Under the pieces are notes generated by a model, which saw nothing but the letters and a program-made list of their open reading frames with translations, was not told where the DNA came from and made no database searches. The position numbers and the translations under genes are program-made. 36,787 bases of DNA, from positions 1-36,787 of the forward strand of contig CANJVG010000022.1 of the NCBI GenBank assembly GCA_947478005.1. The letters are read 5' to 3'. Shown here piece by piece: positions 8,240 to 36,787 of this stretch. Positions within the stretch are counted from its first letter, which is position 1, and every line of letters begins with the position of its first letter. This DNA comes from Bacteroidota bacterium. Lineage in GTDB: Bacteria > Bacteroidota > Bacteroidia > Chitinophagales > LD1.

Positions 8240-9616
8240 TCAATTCCTGAGGCAACGAACAGAAAGCCCCGTTGTCTTATCGGTATTATATACGGATGTA
8301 CCGGCACTATTGTAATTCAGCTGTCGGTACCATGTATTGTAAATGTCATACCCGGTAGAACTCCACCAGAATCCGACAGCGCCAAGGCTACTGAACATAC
8401 CATTGCCGGTACGTAGACCTCCCGGAGCGCCAGAAAAGCCACTTTCATTAGTAGCTGCGGTATTGGGTGTGACCCAAAGCGTTATAGTTTTCATTTTTCC
8501 GCCTGCTACCGTATCGCCTCCTAAATAATCCGATAGTTGTTGAAAGGCAGTATCACTTGGTACATGCCATCCCGTAGGACATACATTGCGCGGGTCGGCT
8601 ACCGCATACCAGTTATAGAGTTTACCGTATGTTGTGTTAATGGCGGCATTGGTATTGTAATAACACCAGGCGGGGGTAGAATCGTTGTTGTTGAGAATAT
8701 TACTCCAGATAGTGTTGTCTTCTATTTCGCCTATGATATCGCCATTGCTATATCTAGTGGTTTTAAGGTTGCCGACCATCCATTCCTGCCCGTTACCTAA
8801 TATAACAGAGGTGTATTGGTTACCGTCCATATCGTTTACCCCGGCTCCCGGGTTGCTTACTACGCTGCCGCTACCTCCTTTGGTAGTAAAGCCAAGCTGG
8901 TTGCCATAAGCTGTGCCAGCGCTGTTGGTGGCATAAGCCCGCACATAATAAGTGGTGCCGACCGCTAAGCCCGTTAAATTGCTGGTGTAGTTGCCCGTGC
9001 CGCTGCCATCGGTGGTTTTGCTGTTCGCTATAGTGGGGTAAGGCGTGGTGCTATAGCATACTCCACGTTGGGTTACGGGGCTGCCGCCAGTATTCGAAAC
9101 ATGCCCCCCGCTGGTGGCTGAAGTGCTGTCTATGTTTCCTACAGTAAGAGTAGTTAGCGTGGCAAGGGTGTTGGCTATGGTAGTAAAACTCAGCTCATTG
9201 CCATACGCTGTGCCAGCGCTATTGGTTGAGTAAGCCCGCACATAATAGGTGGTGGTGGCCGCTAAGCCCGTTAAGTTGCTGGTGTAGTTGCCGGTGCCGC
9301 TGCCATCGGTGGTTCTATTGTTGGCTATGGTGGGGGCAGTTGTAGTGCTATAGCATACCCCGCGCTGGGTTACAGGGCTGCCGCCATCGCTGGTTATGTT
9401 GCCCCCGCTGGTGGCTGTGGCGCTGGTTATACTGCCAACTGACAAGGTTGTTAATGTAGCAAGGGTGCCGGTATTGGGAATAGTATAGGTAATAGTATCG
9501 ATATTGCCGATTGGTATTTGCAGCACCGATCCGTTGCTTTGGTAAATGTTCATGGTGGTTTGGGTGTAGGCCGCTAAGCCTATCAGTATCAATATAAGGG
9601 TGGAAATCTTTTTCAT
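8240..9616 (-). CDS. Secreted FISUMP-domain protein with two FN3-like repeats
   Basis: Signal-like N-terminus MKKISTLILILIGLAAYTQ; two ~99 aa FN3-like repeats; DMDGNQYTSVILGNGQEWMVGNLKTTRYSNGD...YNWYAV...CPTGWHVPSD...SVRCLRN FISUMP pattern. Confidence 0.88.
   Translation of the reverse strand: MKKISTLILILIGLAAYTQTTMNIYQSNGSVLQIPIGNIDTITYTIPNTGTLATLTTLSVGSITSATATSGGNITSDGGSPVTQRGVCYSTTTAPTIANNRTTDGSGTGNYTSNLTGLAATTTYYVRAYSTNSAGTAYGNELSFTTIANTLATLTTLTVGNIDSTSATSGGHVSNTGGSPVTQRGVCYSTTPYPTIANSKTTDGSGTGNYTSNLTGLAVGTTYYVRAYATNSAGTAYGNQLGFTTKGGSGSVVSNPGAGVNDMDGNQYTSVILGNGQEWMVGNLKTTRYSNGDIIGEIEDNTIWSNILNNNDSTPAWCYYNTNAAINTTYGKLYNWYAVADPRNVCPTGWHVPSDTAFQQLSDYLGGDTVAGGKMKTITLWVTPNTAATNESGFSGAPGGLRTGNGMFSSLGAVGFWWSSTGYDIYNTWYRQLNYNSAGTSVYNTDKTTGLSVRCLRN
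8873..9466 (-). repeat. Two tandem ~297-bp in-frame FN3-like repeats
   Basis: TLATLTTLSVGSITSATATSGG...GTAYGNELSFTTIAN followed by TLATLTTLTVGNIDSTSATSGG...GTAYGNQLGFTTKGG; the nucleotide copies are also visibly very similar. Confidence 0.88.
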
Positions 9617-10499: not shown

Positions 10500-11132
10500 T
10501 TAAAGCACTATAATGCTAATCACCTGACTCCAGCCATGTTCGCCTTCTTTGGTAAAGGCTTTGTAGCGAAAATAGACCCGGGTGCTGGGTGTTAATCCTT
10601 TTATAACCGTAGTTGCTTTAATTGTGGTGGTATGCTCTTTCCAAACTGTTTTGTTAAGACTATATTCCCATTTATAAGAAGCGCGTTTATCGGCCGCCTG
10701 CGCTACCAAAATTATTTCACCTTCGGATACTCCATGCTTGGCTTCGAAAGGCAGTTTGGTACGGGCAGGTTGTTTCCTGATACTAAAGCCTGCACTTCGG
10801 ATAATAATAGCTGCCTTATCGGGATTTTGCGCTTCATCGGCCAATTCCTGCACATAGGCCAGCCAGGCATAAATATCTTTCACTACGATGGTGTATTTAG
10901 CATTGCGCATAGCTACCGAGCCTCGCCTGCGCGAAAGAGTTAGCTGTTGTGCCGCATCCAATTTCTTCAAACGATCTGCAACCGCAGCTACCGAAGGTTT
11001 GGGCAGGATGAAGATATCGCTGTGTTCTTCAACCAGGGAGATAATGAATCTTAATCTGGTAATAAGAGAAGGGACGCTTCTATAGTTTCTGAAATGAAAC
11101 ACGGCAATAGGGCGGACTCTGTAGTTAGGCAT
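10500..11132 (-). CDS. Hypothetical protein with C-terminal FN3-like domain
   Basis: 210 aa ORF; C-terminal KWEYSLNKTVWKEHTTTIKATTVIKGLTPSTRVYFRYKAFTKEGEHGWSQVISI resembles an FN3 strand pattern. Confidence 0.7.
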   Translation of the reverse strand: MPNYRVRPIAVFHFRNYRSVPSLITRLRFIISLVEEHSDIFILPKPSVAAVADRLKKLDAAQQLTLSRRRGSVAMRNAKYTIVVKDIYAWLAYVQELADEAQNPDKAAIIIRSAGFSIRKQPARTKLPFEAKHGVSEGEIILVAQAADKRASYKWEYSLNKTVWKEHTTTIKATTVIKGLTPSTRVYFRYKAFTKEGEHGWSQVISIIVL

Positions 11133-11184: not shown

Positions 11185-11478
11185 TCGATGGCTGCTGCCG
11201 CTTCTACTGCGGCAGTTGCCATTTCGGCTTTGTCGCTAAGCTAAGCTGCTACGGCATTTACCATAGTAGCGTTGGCCTTTACCTCATCCATTTGGGCTCC
11301 TGCCATTTCTACTTTGAAAGTTGCCACAGCCGCTCCGGCTTCTTCCATAACCGCTTTGCTTCTTGCCACCTCCGCTATGGTTTTTACCACTTCCTCTTTT
11401 GCTCTGTCCTCTACTGTTATGGCTATTGCCATAATAGTTATGATAGTTGCCACAGCGGCATTGCGGTTTGCTATCTGC
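11185..11478. repeat. Diverged tandem array, exact 21-nt period, about 14 units (array A)
   Basis: Consecutive 21-mers e.g. gctttgcttcttgccacctcc / gctatggtttttaccacttcc / gttatggctattgccataata / gttatgatagttgccacagcg; conserved columns T3, G6, T12, C14, C15, C20. Confidence 0.85.
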
Positions 11479-11863
11479 ACCAACCAGTCTCACTCCTGCA
11501 CCGTTCCACATGGCTAAATTACAGAACAGTCCTGAATCTGCAAAATGCGATTTGAACCCGGCTAAATGAGAGTTGGTACCGGACATTGTACGGATGCAAG
11601 ATGCCAAGAGGAAGATGGCAGAGGCTAAAGTTTAATCCACCGCTGCTTAATGCTAAATCCCTTTGCGCGAATGTCAGCTACATACACACCCGGGCTGAAT
11701 CCACTGATGTCAATGGCAGATGCACCCGGTTGTTTATATTCTTACATCTTCGTCCACCTGCGCTTCACGCTGAAATCTCTTGTTCTAATTCATTGGGAAA
11801 TTCCAACACCCACTAAACAACACCGCCCGTTTCGTGTTTTTATGTTTTAATTGCCTTCACTAA

Positions 11864-17627: not shown

Positions 17628-19103
17628 CTACTTCACCAATCTACTAATTCCTGCTTTTGCTTTCTGGTCCAATCCGTTTTTGTATTCGTGATTTTCGAAA
17701 CTCATGCAGAGATTGTAATAATACTTTGCTTTCTCCTTATCTCCTTTCGCCTCATAAATCTTTCCCGATTCGAAAGCGGAATTGGCGGCAAAGTAACGCG
17801 GCAAATCTTTACCTCGTGCAATCGCACTGTTGTAAAGTATCAACGCAGAATCTTTTCTGTCCCATTCATCATAAATCCTGCCGAACCTATAGAGATACTC
17901 CGTTTGTTCTTCAACATTGCTAAACAAACCTTCCCGCAGCTTACTCATTTCGCTGGCTGCCTGTTGGTAATAGCCGCCATCGAAAAGCAAACGTGCGCGC
18001 AGTAAATTTTTATTCGGCAGGCGATTGCTCTCTGCTTCTTTCTTCGCCTGCTTATCGGCATCTACCATGCTGGCGCCCAGGTTGTCGGCTTTGTTAATGA
18101 AGTAGAAGTAGTTCACCGTATCATCTTTCAGCAAATAGCTCCAGGCAATTTTTTGAAACGAAGATTTAATATGGTTCTCGCCTTTGTAGGCCGCTATAAA
18201 TTGTTTGAAATAAGAATCGGCACCGGCATCCAGCTTGTTCAACTTGGCCAGGCCCGTGAGGTAATTGAGAAAAGGGAAAGACACGAAGGCTTTGTCGGTT
18301 GGTTTGTTGTTGAGTAGCTTCAGCGCTTCTTCGTTGTGTTTGCCATAAACGCCAATATGCGCACAGGTGTAAACGGTCATCAGATTATCCTTCTTCGGAA
18401 AACCGTTTTCCATCAACATCTTCCACGCTCCGTCACTTTGATTTTGCAGATGGAAGAGAAGAAAGGCATAGTAAGTAATCGTTTCTTCCTGATATATAAA
18501 ATCATTCTTCTTACCAACATCAACCAGGTCTTTGAGGTAGCCGATTCCCTTCTCCACACTACCTTCCATGCCCAGGAGGTTTAAGCCCCATTTATATTTA
18601 TCGGGCACGCTGCCGAGCAGGGCATACAAGACCCCGAGCGATTTTTTGTTGGGTTTAAATTCAGGAAACTTCTTCTGATTTTCTTCCAGCAGCTTGAATG
18701 CTTTGCGGATTTCGAAAATGGCATTGAGGTATTCTCCGAATTTTATTTCAATAGCCGCCCATTGCAGATTGACTTCGGCTTGTGTAAACAGAAAATAGGG
18801 CGAGCCGTAATCTCCGGCTGCCAGCAACACCAACAGCACCTCTTTGTTTTTCTTGCGCTTATCATATTCCTCATGGGTGTCGGTTACATACACCGAAAGA
18901 AAATCGACATAGTTTTGGAGATAGAGCGGAATCAGATTGTCGGGGTTCTTTTTCTCTTCTGCTTTCAGCAGCGCATTTCCTTCCTGCAGTTTCAGCGCAA
19001 GAATGCTGTTGTAGGCCTGGCGGCAGTTGTCGTTGAAATCAAAAATCTGCGCAGGCGCCCGGAGCGAGGCAATAAACAGAAAGAAGAAAAGGAGGCTGCG
19101 CAT
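17628..19103 (-). CDS. Secreted TPR-like repeat protein
   Basis: Likely start MRSLLFFFLFIASLRAPAQIFDF (signal peptide) at 19103; helical repeats, e.g. YRFGRIYDEWDRKDSALILYNSAIA...KGDKEKAKYYYNLCMSF. Confidence 0.75.
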   Translation of the reverse strand: MRSLLFFFLFIASLRAPAQIFDFNDNCRQAYNSILALKLQEGNALLKAEEKKNPDNLIPLYLQNYVDFLSVYVTDTHEEYDKRKKNKEVLLVLLAAGDYGSPYFLFTQAEVNLQWAAIEIKFGEYLNAIFEIRKAFKLLEENQKKFPEFKPNKKSLGVLYALLGSVPDKYKWGLNLLGMEGSVEKGIGYLKDLVDVGKKNDFIYQEETITYYAFLLFHLQNQSDGAWKMLMENGFPKKDNLMTVYTCAHIGVYGKHNEEALKLLNNKPTDKAFVSFPFLNYLTGLAKLNKLDAGADSYFKQFIAAYKGENHIKSSFQKIAWSYLLKDDTVNYFYFINKADNLGASMVDADKQAKKEAESNRLPNKNLLRARLLFDGGYYQQAASEMSKLREGLFSNVEEQTEYLYRFGRIYDEWDRKDSALILYNSAIARGKDLPRYFAANSAFESGKIYEAKGDKEKAKYYYNLCMSFENHEYKNGLDQKAKAGISRLVK

Positions 19104-19298
19104 GTCAGGCGAATAAACCGAAAATGATGGAGATTCAAATGCAGAATGATGAGGTTCCCGCTCAGAGCAGCGGTCGGGCTTTCCGTTCCGCTCTTTTTTG
19201 CCACGCAGAAAAGGCAACGCAAAAAAAGGAGCTCCACTGCAATCCCTAACCCAACAGCCGCCCTCCACTCAACATTTTGGCATTTGCATTTTCTCTAA

Positions 19299-21892: not shown

Positions 21893-23131
21893 CTACCCCT
21901 CCAAATTATCAAACGTCAACTTAAAATGTGCCGTAGTCATACCAATATTCTGAACCATCAGATAAGGATTCATAGCATTCAAACCAATCTGCACCCTAAA
22001 ATCATTCAAATCCACACTCATCGACCCTATCTGAAAATCCATAAACGGAACAGCTGGTTGATACCCGGTGGCCGGATTAGCCGCAGCATAAAACCGCACC
22101 GCGCTTCCGCTTATCACAATCCCAACCGTTGTTTGTGGTGTTGGGTTAATAGCGCTCACATCAATATTCACAAACCCTGGCGACACCACATCACCCTCGC
22201 GCACAGCAGTATTACTTCCCGCTATCAACTTTATCTTTCTTTGCAGCTCCTTACCGGGTCCTATATGCACATTCGTTTCCACCTGCGGCATATACCCGTT
22301 CAGCGACCACTTAAAATCAAAATCACCCGAAGGCAACTTATCCGCTTTATAATCTCCCACATTATTGGTCAGCACCTGCCTAACCAACGTCTGCGTGCCC
22401 GTATCAAAAATCTGAAAAGCCACGCCTGCCAGCGGCACCTTCAATTCATTCACCACCGACCCGCGCACCTTCGCAGTAGTAGAACCCAAATTAATAATCT
22501 CTCTTGCCTGGTCATAACCCTTGCAGAAATTAGGTTGCGCAATTTTTAGAGTATTCACAATCTTATCCATCACTCCTTCTAAATAATTCACCACAATATC
22601 AGTAACAATCGCTTTCGCCTGCTGGTTTGCTTGGCTCTTCGTAATAATCGCCTGTCTCGGTTTCTGAGTGGCTATCCGGTATAAATTAATCGCTGTTTGC
22701 AAATCAGTCACATCCGCAGCCACAACACCTGCCCCTGCCAGTGAAGCAATATTCGCATCAGTAGCATCATGAATGCCCTGACACACATCATCAACATCTT
22801 CCTTTTTCTCTCTGCTCAACTTACTTTCGTTAAAGTTTACCAACGCCTTCAACGTGTTATTGTTTGTAGTGTTAGCAAAAGCGAGGGTGCCGTTCGCGCA
22901 TTTCAGCGCAATATCCTGCATCACCTTTCTCAACAGATTCGTGTCTGTCGTCACTCCTTTGGTCGAACCCTTCGCTATTTGGTTCAATCCGTTAATCAAA
23001 ACTAGTTTGCCCTTCACAGTCGTAAGGGCGCTTACAAATAGTGTAAGCGATGCGGTAATCCCTGCATTCGCATCACTGTAACCTACTGTTGTGTTAATCA
23101 TGTTAACACGATTGGTATCTCTGTCTTCCAT
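21893..23131 (-). CDS. Bacteroidota-specific hypothetical protein with carboxypeptidase-regulatory-like domain
   Basis: 412 aa; central VRGSVVNELKVPLAGVAFQIFDTGTQTLVRQVLTNNVGDYKADKLPSGDFDFKWSLNGY resembles a CarboxypepD_reg-like beta-sandwich. Confidence 0.7.
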   Translation of the reverse strand: MEDRDTNRVNMINTTVGYSDANAGITASLTLFVSALTTVKGKLVLINGLNQIAKGSTKGVTTDTNLLRKVMQDIALKCANGTLAFANTTNNNTLKALVNFNESKLSREKKEDVDDVCQGIHDATDANIASLAGAGVVAADVTDLQTAINLYRIATQKPRQAIITKSQANQQAKAIVTDIVVNYLEGVMDKIVNTLKIAQPNFCKGYDQAREIINLGSTTAKVRGSVVNELKVPLAGVAFQIFDTGTQTLVRQVLTNNVGDYKADKLPSGDFDFKWSLNGYMPQVETNVHIGPGKELQRKIKLIAGSNTAVREGDVVSPGFVNIDVSAINPTPQTTVGIVISGSAVRFYAAANPATGYQPAVPFMDFQIGSMSVDLNDFRVQIGLNAMNPYLMVQNIGMTTAHFKLTFDNLEG

Positions 23132-23273
23132 GGCTTTTAGGTTTTAAACCCGGTGTGTAATCGGGCTTGGTTATTTAATGCTGGCAAAAATTTGGATTTA
23201 CCTAATTTTTTGCAAACTATTTTTAGCACACCCTGTTTATTTTTCAAAAGTGCCTGACAATCAAATAATTATA

Positions 23274-23567
23274 AAAACCTCCCGAACATCAAAAGCCTCT
23301 TACAGGACAACAAACGAGCCTCACAGGAGAACAAACGAGCCTCGCAGGACAACAAATGAACCTTACAGGAGAACAAACGAGCCTTACAGTTTGACAAACC
23401 GCCCTTACATGATGACAACCGAACCTTACAGTTTGACAAATGATGCTCACAGCAAGACAAACGCATCTTACATGGCGCAAAACGAACTCAACAGAATAAA
23501 AAATGAATCTTACGGTTTGTCAAACCATTCCTACCGGATGCAGAATGCACCTTTCAGGGAGAACAAA
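23274..23567. repeat. Diverged tandem array, exact 21-nt period, about 14 units (array B)
   Basis: gcctcttacaggacaacaaac / gagcctcacaggagaacaaac / gagcctcgcaggacaacaaat / gaaccttacaggagaacaaac / gagccttacagtttgacaaac ... gcacctttcagggagaacaaa, no indels. Confidence 0.92.
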
Positions 23568-23614
23568 AAAGGAATCTCTATTGCATCCGCTACCTCAAAT
23601 AGAACAATACAAAA

Positions 23615-24505
23615 TCACCAGTTAATTTTCCCATCAACATCTACATTTTTGCATTTAGACATTTCAAGTATTTCTAAATCCGCTAAAACTTTCGGATTGT
23701 CTTTAATGACTTTGACCTTTAGCTTAAATGCATTAAACAACGAAATCAATTTTTGGTCTTCTACTTCTTTTGAAAATACAACATTGAAGAAATCCGATTG
23801 AGTTACGCTTGCATAAATCACACCATAACTTTTGTTTCCCGAGTCTGATTTTATACCTAAACACATATTGGTATACGCAGCAGTTATTTGATAAGACAAT
23901 CCTCGTTCGTCAGATTTAAACCTACCATCCAAATAGTCAAAATAGATACCCGAGAACTCCTTATAATCCGAATACATTTTTTGCTTCTCCTCAACATCCT
24001 TGTCATATCTATCTCCTAATTCATGTTCGTAAACATGCACTCTTTTGCTTTTGAAAGGCTGAACTACATATGAGGTGTCGAGCGTTTTATTCATTTCCCA
24101 AATCCCAAGTGTAATAACACACGTTTCTCCCGCCTTCCGATTTTGCAAAGTTTCAATTATAGCTGTGTCGCGATTTTCAGATAAATATAAAAGGGCTTGT
24201 AGGGGCTTGTTACATCTACCAAAGTCCTTGATGTAATTTTCTTCCTTTTGATACCCAACTTTTGAAAAGCGATCAAACGATATCGCCTCCTCTGGACCAT
24301 AATGTATCTTACAGCGATACAAAATTTTTCCCTCAGCTATGTTTGCCCACATCGTTCTAAAACAGCCCGCTTGGTTGAACGCATTTATAACTTCTTGATA
24401 GTTATTGCCAGTCTTGAGATGCTCAAGCCAGTTACAAAATTTTTTTGCGTTGTCAATATTCCTACTCATAAAGTATATTTTTTGCCGTTGTTGGTATTTT
24501 ACCAT
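23615..24505 (-). CDS. Hypothetical protein with RES-like region
   Basis: ILYRCKIHYGPEEAISFDRFSKVG...RCNKPLQALLYLSENRDTAIIETLQNRKAGETCVITLG resembles the RES-domain pattern (R...R...LYLS...TAIIE). Alternative start MSRNIDN at 24469. Confidence 0.55.
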   Translation of the reverse strand: MVKYQQRQKIYFMSRNIDNAKKFCNWLEHLKTGNNYQEVINAFNQAGCFRTMWANIAEGKILYRCKIHYGPEEAISFDRFSKVGYQKEENYIKDFGRCNKPLQALLYLSENRDTAIIETLQNRKAGETCVITLGIWEMNKTLDTSYVVQPFKSKRVHVYEHELGDRYDKDVEEKQKMYSDYKEFSGIYFDYLDGRFKSDERGLSYQITAAYTNMCLGIKSDSGNKSYGVIYASVTQSDFFNVVFSKEVEDQKLISLFNAFKLKVKVIKDNPKVLADLEILEMSKCKNVDVDGKINW

Positions 24506-32884: not shown

Positions 32885-33409
32885 GACCTTATATTTAAAT
32901 TACAACCTAAAGTTTGTTCTACTTCAATTAGCGTAAATAGTTTCAGCAAGTTATACCGAACCATGTTCAAAATTTTTTATAGAGAGCATTCCGCCTACGT
33001 ATATTTTATCTTCTAAACTGAAGTTTCATTGGCAAATACTAATCAACTGTAATTACTTTCTAGTTTTTATACGCTAAGCAAAGACTAAATCAGTTAAAGG
33101 GAAAATTAGCTTTCCGATGTAATCTCTGATTATATTTCATTCGATGAAATTTCACCTAACGTAAAAACCTCCGTTGAAAATTATATCCTATAACCCAACT
33201 CTGTTTTAGAAATTTAGACCTGAATATTTTTTTATTCAAGTTGAACGAGAAGAAAAGTGGATGTTAATAGTTAGCCCACTATAGCTGTTGGGGTAGTTTT
33301 AAATATGTGTTGAGTAAGCTGGAGTTTGAGAATGGTTGATTTTTATGATAAGATCAAAAAACTAAACTTTCGGACTAATTTTTGATCAAAAAAGGCTATT
33401 TATTTGAAA

Positions 33410-33682
33410 GTCGCCCTCAAATCTCTCTCGGTAACTGTCATATCTTCCTCCCGGACTGCCATATCTTCCTCCGGTATCGTCAAATCTTTTAGGGTTGTGA
33501 TTAAATCTTGAAGAGTTGTTCTCAAATCTTTGAAGTTGATGGTTAAATCTCGAAGAGTCGTTGTCGAATCTTTGAGGGTGATAGTTAAATCTTTCAGACT
33601 GATGGTCGTTTCTTTTGGTCTGACGACCATTTCTCTTTGGGTTATGAGCAAATTTCTTTGCCTGGTGAGCAATGGTGAGGCA
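33410..33682. repeat. Diverged tandem array, exact 21-nt period, about 13 units (array C)
   Basis: gttgtgattaaatcttgaaga / gttgttctcaaatctttgaag / ttgatggttaaatctcgaaga / gtcgttgtcgaatctttgagg / gtgatagttaaatctttcaga ...; core (T)(C/T)AAATCT. Confidence 0.92.
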
Positions 33683-33687
33683 TTCGC

Positions 33688-36069
33688 TTAATAAACCTTA
33701 TACCCCGCAAAAATACTTTCGAGCTGATTGAGGTTCACGCTTTGCGCGCTGCCTGAGCTTTGCACCACCACCACATCCACCACATCGCCCGAATACAATT
33801 TCAAATTAGCATTCAGCACCTGCTGCGTAGTGCCGCCACCGGTCTTAATCGTTTGCCGCACCTGCTCGATAATTACTCCATTGAGCCGCACCGCCAGCAC
33901 CGCATCGCCCTGCGCGGTGAACTGCTCCCAAATCATCTTCACATCAAAATGATACATCCCTTCGCTATAAACATTAAAGGTTCCCAAACCCACATCGTAA
34001 TAATTGCCATCATTAAAATTCACGTTGTCAAACAGAATCTGTGTTTCCACCGCATTGCTTATGCTCAGCAAACCGTTTGTGCTATAAGCGCTAAAGGCAT
34101 TCTTCGGGTTATCCTCACCCCAGGTAGCCAGCCCCGTAGCATCCGAAATTAAAACCTTACCAAAAGCCGGCCCGCCACCAGTAATCTTCACCTGTCCGTT
34201 CACCTCCAGCTTAGCACCCGGAGCCGGAGTGCCTATGCCTATATTGTCAGTCGCATTATCAATCGTAAAAGCATCATTGCCGGTCTGGTAATTAAAAATA
34301 CGATAATTATTATTGTTCAAAGTTCCCGTAAGCCACTGTGCCGAATCATTCAAACTAAACTGCACAGCCGCCTGGTCTGTAGAAGCATCCGTTCTATCCA
34401 AAATAAAAAGCGAACGATTGAAACCACCGCCCTGTCCTTTCAACCGCATGATAGCATCGGTGTTAAACGCAGCATCAATATTATATTTAGGCAAAGCAGA
34501 AACTAAACCGATTCCGATATTACCCGATTCAGTAATCCGCATTCTTTCTGTGGTGGATGTTCCAAACGAAAGCGGTTCGTTTTCATAATTGGTAATAAAT
34601 GCCGCGCCTGTCAGATTGCTGTGGCCTATCACCAAACCATCCGTAGAACCATCACCGGTAGAAGAAGAAGAAATTTGAAACCGCGTAGGCAAATTAGCCG
34701 CATTCTTCACCACCAAATCATTAATCGGTAAAGGAACATTCACACCCACTCTCCCATCCTGCGAAATCATCACCCGTTGCTTTCCGCTGGTTCCTATCGA
34801 CACATTCTCTGCTTCATAATTCATCAACTGAATTTCACCAGCATTAGTCACCTGCCCCATCACAAACCCGTCAAACTTAGAAGCCCCCGTTACGGTTGAA
34901 ACAATCTGCAGAGCAGAAGTATCGAAACCGGCAGACACCACCAACTCGCGCAAAGGATTCGTATTCCCGATTCCTACCTTCCCCAATTCATTCACCCGCA
35001 TTCGCTCCAAAGCATTTGTGCCAAAGAGCAAAGGCTTGTTTTCCTGATTCATCAACATAGCCGTTCCAAACACATCACTCTGCCCCACCAACAAACCATC
35101 GGTAGAAGTTTGTCCGGTAAGAATAGAAGCCATTTGAAAAGTAGTTGGCAAACCACTTTGACTGACTAACACTAAATCTCTTTTCGGAAAAGCCGTTCCC
35201 ATTCCAATCAAACCATCCTTAGTCAAGCGCATTCGCTCATTGCCGGCAGTGCTGAAGAATAAATCCTTCGCTTCCTGTTGCACAATTCCAACATCGCTGC
35301 TATCAGTGACCGAAATAATTAATCCATCACCCGCGTTCTTGCCCGTATTATTCGTAGTCAACTGAACGCCACTTGCACCAGCTTTGTGAATCTGCAAAGC
35401 ACTATGCGGAGTATTTGTATTTATGCCCACATTAGTTCCATCATCAAAAATCCGCGAATTGCCCAACGAAGTGGAGTCCGGAGTAAACTTAGCAACGTAA
35501 TTCAGCGTGCCAGAAGAGTTACCCGCTCCTGTTGCTCCCTTAGCTCCGGTTGTTCCTTTCAATCCCGTAGCACCGGTTGCACCTTTCGCCCCGGTAGCTC
35601 CAGCTAACCCATTAATACCACTAACTCCGGTTGCACCAGTTGCACCACCTCCTCCTCCCCCATTTCCCGCTCTCTCTGCATACAAAGCATACGGCACACT
35701 GATTAACTGCGAAGAAGCTACCAACAAATAATTAGTCCCGCCCTGCGGGTCAAACTCTACCTGTAAATACTTTTGGTCCCCACCCCAATTAATACTTACA
35801 AAACTTCCAATCGAAGCAGGTCCCTCGCCCACCATCGCAGTAAACAGCCCAAACTGATTAGTTTGAAGTTGTCGTGTTTCTTGATATACAATTGGACCCG
35901 TAAGAGAAATATCGCGAATAGTAAACCGACAGTTTACGTTTTGATTGGCTATTACAGAACCTGAAGCATCACGCGCCACTGCCTGATAATTAAATTTATG
36001 CGGAGCCTGCGCAATAAGTCCAATAGCTAAAACTGTACAGATAAAAAGTGTAATAGTCTTCTTCATCAT
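33688..36069 (-). CDS. Secreted collagen-like protein with repeated beta modules and C-terminal C1q/TNF-like head
   Basis: Signal peptide MMKKTITLFICTVLAIGLIAQ; Gly-X-Y run GATGATGVSGINGLAGATGAKGATGATGLKGTTGAKGATGAG; repeated ERMR(L/V/I)xxxGxxGIGxxxP modules; C-terminal NAFSAYSTNG...ILFDNVNFNDGNYYDVGLGTFNVYSEGMYHFDV...LYSGDVVDVVV...SIFAGYKVY. Confidence 0.85.
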   Translation of the reverse strand: MMKKTITLFICTVLAIGLIAQAPHKFNYQAVARDASGSVIANQNVNCRFTIRDISLTGPIVYQETRQLQTNQFGLFTAMVGEGPASIGSFVSINWGGDQKYLQVEFDPQGGTNYLLVASSQLISVPYALYAERAGNGGGGGGATGATGVSGINGLAGATGAKGATGATGLKGTTGAKGATGAGNSSGTLNYVAKFTPDSTSLGNSRIFDDGTNVGINTNTPHSALQIHKAGASGVQLTTNNTGKNAGDGLIISVTDSSDVGIVQQEAKDLFFSTAGNERMRLTKDGLIGMGTAFPKRDLVLVSQSGLPTTFQMASILTGQTSTDGLLVGQSDVFGTAMLMNQENKPLLFGTNALERMRVNELGKVGIGNTNPLRELVVSAGFDTSALQIVSTVTGASKFDGFVMGQVTNAGEIQLMNYEAENVSIGTSGKQRVMISQDGRVGVNVPLPINDLVVKNAANLPTRFQISSSSTGDGSTDGLVIGHSNLTGAAFITNYENEPLSFGTSTTERMRITESGNIGIGLVSALPKYNIDAAFNTDAIMRLKGQGGGFNRSLFILDRTDASTDQAAVQFSLNDSAQWLTGTLNNNNYRIFNYQTGNDAFTIDNATDNIGIGTPAPGAKLEVNGQVKITGGGPAFGKVLISDATGLATWGEDNPKNAFSAYSTNGLLSISNAVETQILFDNVNFNDGNYYDVGLGTFNVYSEGMYHFDVKMIWEQFTAQGDAVLAVRLNGVIIEQVRQTIKTGGGTTQQVLNANLKLYSGDVVDVVVVQSSGSAQSVNLNQLESIFAGYKVY

Positions 36070-36263: not shown

Positions 36264-36374
<111 letters not shown>

Positions 36375-36462
36375 TTAAGTTTAGTCCTATAGCAAAGGAC
36401 AATAAATTTTGACATATTGGAGTTAATAAAAACGCTAAAATTTCAAACTAAAAAAATATAAA

Positions 36463-36787
<325 letters not shown>

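Follow-up and report, generated by a model that had tools for sequence, protein, structure and literature searches.

Tandem arrays of fixed 21/42-nt period and unrelated sequence are linked to three protein families of Bacteroidota and possibly act as spacing-conserved cis-elements

Results

Arrays with a 21/42-nt period lie upstream of F1, F2, and F3 genes

Tandem arrays with a period of 21 or 42 nt are linked, across the phylum Bacteroidota, to the genes of three protein families (F1, F2, and F3) that share no sequence similarity with one another. One such array, array B, is located in the window (the whole stretch of 36,787 nt that was analyzed here), and our preferred though tentative interpretation is that it belongs to a fast-evolving class of non-coding cis-elements, conserved in spacing, that would act on the downstream gene. 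When 102 distinct F1/F2/F3 genes were gathered by profile searches over the order and the phylum, a 21/42-nt array was found at most 1.3 kb upstream of 77 of them, compared with 12 of 1065 control genes (Bacteroidota); the seeds of the three families had been picked for standing beside an array, their homologs had not. Periodic stretches upstream of the F genes had a period of 21 or 42 in 78 of 83 cases, and the median gap from array to start codon was 171 nt. Within the genus, an array was present within 600 bp for 15 of 20 F1/F2 genes versus 26 of 499 other genes (Fisher p 2e-14, odds ratio 55), and in the genome that contains the window (the source genome) the corresponding counts were 7/10 and 49/375 (p 8e-5).

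The linkage was observed for each family. The first six F1 homologs checked in related genomes each had their own array 5′ of the gene, and the surroundings (up to 20 kb) of more distant F1 homologs contained an array in most cases, mostly adjoining the homolog. For F2, an array was found within ~0.5 to 1 kb at 17 of 20 genus loci, counting the locus in the window, while F3, a family found beside an array of the source genome (locus L034), had an upstream array in 10 of 10 full-length genus members examined. F1 and F3 arrays also occurred in several other families of the order, and F2 and some F3-like loci with arrays were present in genomes placed only to the same phylum (G250, G314, and G230). 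Some F2 arrays were located 3′ of the F2 gene; at two loci of genome G017 this position is 5′ of a gene of another family, F6, and elsewhere it is not. At three F2 homologs (L193, L194, and L200) an array was not detectable.

F6 is a further family without a Pfam match (MAIPxLNPYK..., L055 9218-9961 and L221 3022-3711), with an array 5′ of the gene in G017 and G009 and no array at the homologs in G006, G010, and G011. Two source-genome genes that adjoin arrays and have no Pfam match (L029 12178-12819 and L030 15309-16250) perhaps represent further such families.

Array B is an imperfect 21-nt array upstream of the F1 gene

Alignment in register showed array B to be real, with 12 clear head-to-tail units of 21 nt at 23302-23553 (minus strand; consensus on the plus strand ACAGGATGACAAACGAACCTT), 5′ of the minus-strand F1 gene. 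This core is bordered by two degenerate edge units, one nearest the F1 gene (23281..23301, minus strand, 11/21 matches to the consensus) and one farthest from it (23554..23574, minus strand, 10/21), and the extent of 23274-23567 proposed earlier from the sequence alone (the sequence-only reading) was correct to within one unit. Tandem Repeats Finder assigned a 21-nt period to 23299-23431 and a 42-nt period to 23310-23472. Identity within the array was 0.64 at lag 21 and 0.68 at lag 42, a slight odd/even alternation, and ~0.30 at lags 10, 11, 20, and 22; in 2000 first-order Markov simulations the lag-21 identity expected by chance had a mean of 0.267, an SD of 0.030, and a maximum of 0.372.

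The conservation gradient described in the sequence-only reading is genuine though mild: among the first four units, any two agree at 16 to 20 of 21 positions and the last units match their neighbors at 9 to 11 of 21, with the tight units nearest the 21893..23131 gene and the looser ones away from it. Column information bore out both the segment described as variable (columns 5-8) and the conservation of the CAAA core; columns 2 and 12 were invariant and columns 5, 7, and 17 were near zero. The recurrence of a variant in non-adjacent units was likewise confirmed for GTTTG, which is present in units 5, 7, and 11, but the idea that variants were shuffled was not, as the pattern fits the general odd/even alternation of these arrays. 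Where GTTTG is present, it and the core form a short palindrome (GTTTGaCAAAC, GGTTTGtCAAACC), which the sequence-only reading had not mentioned. A whole-genome search for the core, which that reading had proposed, returned six matches inside array B and one weak match elsewhere, which is the control level, and no second copy of array B was found in the source genome beyond chance level. Array B consists of imperfect head-to-tail 21-mers without spacers and did not qualify as a CRISPR, no Cas domain was found among the window proteins scanned, and no Rfam family matched array B above threshold.

The gene relevant to array B is the downstream minus-strand gene at 21893..23131 rather than the RES-like neighbor. 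Array B and this gene are separated by 142 to 170 bp, depending on the choice of array start, in agreement with the 143 bp given before, and the leader between array B and the F1 start codon (23132..23280, minus strand) presumably holds, by its position, a putative promoter and the 5′ UTR. Overall, the sequence-only reading of array B, which left its nature open, is partly supported.

The RES-like gene (23615-24505; Pfam RES E 8e-4, below the cut-off) lies between array B and an AMP-binding ligase, giving the order CoA ligase-RES-array-F1 at this locus. In G004 the order is ligase-other gene-array-PEPCK, with a different gene and another array (L070 5193-5533) on the equivalent side of the ligase. 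The CoA-ligase neighborhood was rejected as an ancestral array site, since G014 and G017 lack an array next to their ligase.

A period scan of the window also identified array C (11204..11497, minus strand), located 5′ of the F2 gene, and array A (33407..33679, minus strand), which has no recognized F gene adjoining; both are 21/42-nt arrays unrelated in sequence to array B. The 3′ end of a C1q/collagen-like gene (33688-36069) is a few nt from array A, and the 5′ end of a histidine kinase gene is ~0.5 kb from it. Elsewhere in the window, an Rfam Flavo-1 RNA was detected on the minus strand at 19168-19255 (51.4 bits, gathering threshold 42), overlapping the start of the ORF at 17628-19268; the ORF at 8240-9616 contains two 297-bp direct repeats with an 80% match (8881-9467); and a 5S rRNA and the 3′ end of a 23S rRNA occupy 36264-36787 at the contig end, so that the contig probably breaks inside an rRNA operon.

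The period is constant among arrays of unrelated sequence

The source genome was sampled by stretches, namely the window plus 20 further contigs, each over its first 20 kb, and these 437 kb contained ~24 21-nt arrays, ~22 of them additional arrays on the further contigs. Nearly all had a period of 21/42, most were intergenic, and at ~1 array per 18 kb the whole genome would hold ~200. Random stretches of other genomes were far poorer in arrays: most same-genus genomes had none in 20 to 40 kb, while some arrays were found in such stretches of the same-genus genomes G004 and G017, and ~80 loci of named Bacteroidota contained no array of the class except at one locus that belongs to G004 itself. 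The sources were draft metagenome assemblies, in which short-read repeats can be mis-assembled, and the taxonomic scope was Bacteroidota.

The period profile over 72 distinct arrays peaked at 21, 42, and 63 only, with a mean identity of 0.53 at lag 21, 0.62 at lag 42, and ~0.25 to 0.30 at other lags. As a function of unit lag from 1 to 6, identity was 0.53, 0.62, 0.51, 0.59, 0.49, and 0.56, and this odd/even alternation indicates that the true repeat is 42 nt long and made of two related half-units, A and B. No motif or consensus was common to different arrays, their units being unrelated from array to array. A 10.5-bp half-unit repeat was rejected, since identity at lags 10 and 11 was at background, and a 7-nt repeat was not observed over the 72 arrays (lag-7 identity 0.28); the array at L089, a simple 7-nt repeat, was placed outside the class.

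Array sequence diverges faster than the adjoining protein

Where the proteins were more than 80% identical, the consensus sequences of their arrays had a mean similarity of 0.66; this was mostly lost at 45 to 80% protein identity, and at less than 45% it had nearly fallen to the baseline between families, 0.21. Ortholog arrays differed, among others, by gaps of exactly 21 nt. These comparisons of sequence indicate that the array travels with its gene and gains and loses 21-nt units, and that its sequence outpaces that of the protein with period and place constant; once the proteins fall below ~50% identity the arrays become unrecognizable, with the period still fixed.

The leader was more similar than the array in two F2 ortholog pairs (90% versus 73% and 86% versus 81%) and less similar in one F1 ortholog pair (72% versus 78%). 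At two F2 loci (L199 and L206), the leader ~200 nt upstream of the gene is strongly conserved between orthologs, contains inverted repeats (GCCTGCC...GGCAGG, TTGTTGCGCAAC), and is possibly a regulatory RNA or an operator. A leader motif common to the F genes, AACCA..AAA, was rejected because it was enriched (18/45 versus 77/798) yet not specific.

F1 and F2 are predicted to combine helical and Ig-like domains

The F1 gene (21893..23131, minus strand), whose homologs also have arrays, encodes a protein of 412 aa with a match to Pfam PF13620 (E 7.5e-9). Its AlphaFold model (pLDDT 86.9) predicts a helical domain at residues 1-208, a CarboxypepD_reg/CNA-B-like Ig domain at 218-300, and a second beta domain at 306-410, with a pTM of just 0.38 that makes the arrangement of the domains uncertain. 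The F2 gene (10500..11132, minus strand) encodes 210 aa predicted to form a helical domain (residues 1-115) and an FN3-like domain (pLDDT 91.4, pTM 0.59), and fn3 was found in 8 of the 20 members of the family. No Pfam domain matched F3. Fold searches with the F1 and F2 models gave meaningful resemblance to Ig/FN3-type folds only, and the helical domains had no known relative in these searches. As judged by eye, a signal sequence was not evident in F1, F2, or F3, and no Rep/ParR-like protein was recognized among the array-linked genes. Weak phage-tail matches were obtained (PHROG E 0.04 and 0.003). The idea that the proteins derive from phages or plasmids was rejected, as tblastn found no F1 in phages and no F3 in plasmids; a pattern scan of IMG/VR for F3 revealed no relatives, and the F2 alignment was too divergent for such a scan.

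Discussion

Alongside the observed linkage of arrays and genes, we infer from sequence comparison that the arrays would act in cis on the gene below them. We hypothesize that each array functions in cis as a DNA element, located 5′ of the putative promoter of the gene, and that the phase of the array is kept while its sequence is not. A length of 21 bp corresponds to two turns of B-DNA, and every unit would therefore present the same face of the helix, such that bends or bound proteins would add up. With the same face presented by each unit, an array of almost any sequence could serve as a phased platform, through coherent curvature and/or a protein that binds it cooperatively (perhaps the gene product, perhaps a nucleoid protein), and this platform would set the expression of the gene below; steps of 21 bp in copy number would preserve the phase. 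Using a wedge model with assumed parameters, predicted curvature was above that of shuffled sequences in 48 of 74 arrays and above that of arrays re-spaced to 24 bp in 55 of 74, and the mean ratio of contour to end-to-end distance was 1.10 versus 1.05 for shuffled sequences. As this excess is small, protein binding is at least as likely as bending. Speaking against the hypothesis are the arrays with no recognized F gene adjoining, which show that an array can exist without one, the F2 arrays 3′ of their gene, and the F2 and F6 homologs at which no array was found.

It is conceivable, if rather doubtful, that gene and array form a unit throughout the phylum, in which the gene of a helical and Ig-like protein is paired with an array whose sole conserved information would be its 21/42-bp spacing, recognized independently of sequence by the partner or by a nucleoid protein.

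Arrays might also be parts of a cassette or recombination element, serving as boundaries or substrates for copying, moving, or shuffling F genes, with the solo arrays as remnants of gene loss. About two thirds of the arrays in the source genome, array A included, have no recognized F gene adjoining, which is easily explained if arrays are such remnants or if they are neutral. The many solo arrays in G000, the presence of arrays and F genes at non-orthologous sites in related species (the array B locus compared with G004, G014, and G017), the exact 21-nt gains and losses, and the patchy presence of the F families are also consistent with mobility. We nevertheless consider a cassette unlikely, since no core or boundary sequence is common to the arrays, an integrase or transposase was not a regular neighbor among the flanking genes read, and an array usually flanks the gene on a single side.

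Of comparably low probability, in our estimate, is a neutral minisatellite with a merely historical linkage, in which an ancestral 21-bp array stood before a spreading gene family and slippage has kept the unit length. The fast turnover of sequence, the gain and loss of units, vertical inheritance, and the lack of detectable structure in array B itself are all as expected of it, and whole-unit changes in copy number, a trait of minisatellites, are seen in the 21-nt gaps between orthologs. Unit length, in contrast, is free between the loci of neutral minisatellites and was here fixed at 21/42, in more than 100 unrelated arrays and outside the F-linked class too, and the three families have the same period and position in spite of their mutual dissimilarity. 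Retention in 75% of homologs against a background of 1% is hard to explain by history, and linkage was found where a neutral array should show none. The ordinary decayed minisatellite that the sequence-only reading had named as its refutation is a misfit for a class in which well over 100 unrelated arrays measure exactly 21/42 nt and in which an array usually accompanies the homologs of the adjacent gene.

Transcription into a non-coding RNA, a chain of RNA motifs (hairpins of the F2/F3 type) that would bind a protein or base-pair in trans, appears quite improbable. Dyad symmetry at span 42 does exist in F2 and F3 arrays (mean z -1.5 and -2.1), a few arrays fold strongly (L041 and L033), and over the whole set, many solo arrays included, the symmetry reached a Stouffer score of +9.8 versus -1.4 for a mirror control. 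A single RNA or hairpin structure for all arrays was rejected, however, as it holds for only some arrays of the F2/F3 type: the F1 arrays taken together had no dyad or folding excess (mean z about -0.2), array B had no excess of RNA folding (z +0.4/+0.7), and no Rfam family was found. Moreover, the dyad symmetry of F2/F3 arrays is equal on both strands, which fits a feature at the level of DNA.

The plus-strand ORF at 23178-23801, with its TNEPYRR heptads, is present as described before and crosses array B, and open frames across arrays were in slight excess (53 versus 40 in sense, 45 versus 39 in antisense). A coding function as seven-codon heptads (TNEPYRR or CKARLFS), to which we assign only a slim chance, is unsupported for array B and was rejected for the arrays, because conservation lacks a three-base periodicity (3% of arrays below p 0.05, with uniform p-values), the frames are open in each of the three phases with respect to the gene and in excess on both strands, and the ORF across array B runs antisense to the F1 gene; with no codon signal in arrays of the class, the TNEPYRR ORF is a side effect of a period that is a multiple of three.

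Selection is usually recognized as conserved sequence, whereas in these arrays spacing and position appear to be kept while sequence is replaced. If the spacing matters, as in the preferred reading of phased cis-elements, the arrays would provide a clear natural example in which helical phase is the functional signal and a handle on the function of the F proteins; if an enzyme builds such arrays anew, this would be a novel array-building activity. The array also offers a simple marker at the DNA level by which additional families of the F gene group could be found.

Within the literature consulted (open-licence full text, preprints not included), we found no account of gene-tied arrays with a fixed period and unrelated sequences, and nothing relevant on helical phasing or curved DNA upstream of promoters. 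Several known systems are nevertheless similar in part. Iterons and parC-type arrays are helically phased direct repeats beside rep or par genes, bound by the Rep, ParR, or ParB product. The arrays described here likewise consist of phased direct repeats, immediately 5′ of a gene that may encode a protein binding to them, but they are chromosomal, many per genome, and different in sequence at each locus. Intergenic VNTRs and minisatellites share with them the gain and loss of units and the diverged edge units, and differ in that the arrays here have a fixed 21/42-nt period over unrelated sequences and a strong linkage to genes. The TAACTGA-type heptamers, one fixed 7-nt direct repeat of Beggiatoaceae, Cyanobacteria, and a few Bacteroidetes, are also intergenic direct repeats upstream of start codons in a range that includes Bacteroidetes (PMC4679880), whereas the arrays here have no sequence in common and no 7-nt repeat. 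The tandem repeats of the archaeal Borgs, which have perfect units of many lengths, 14 to 38% of the intergenic ones divisible by three, resemble the arrays in being genome-wide, unrelated in sequence between loci, fast in turnover, and in many cases intergenic (PMC9879509); the units described here, in contrast, are imperfect (~53% identical to the next), nearly all of 21/42 nt, and tied to particular genes.
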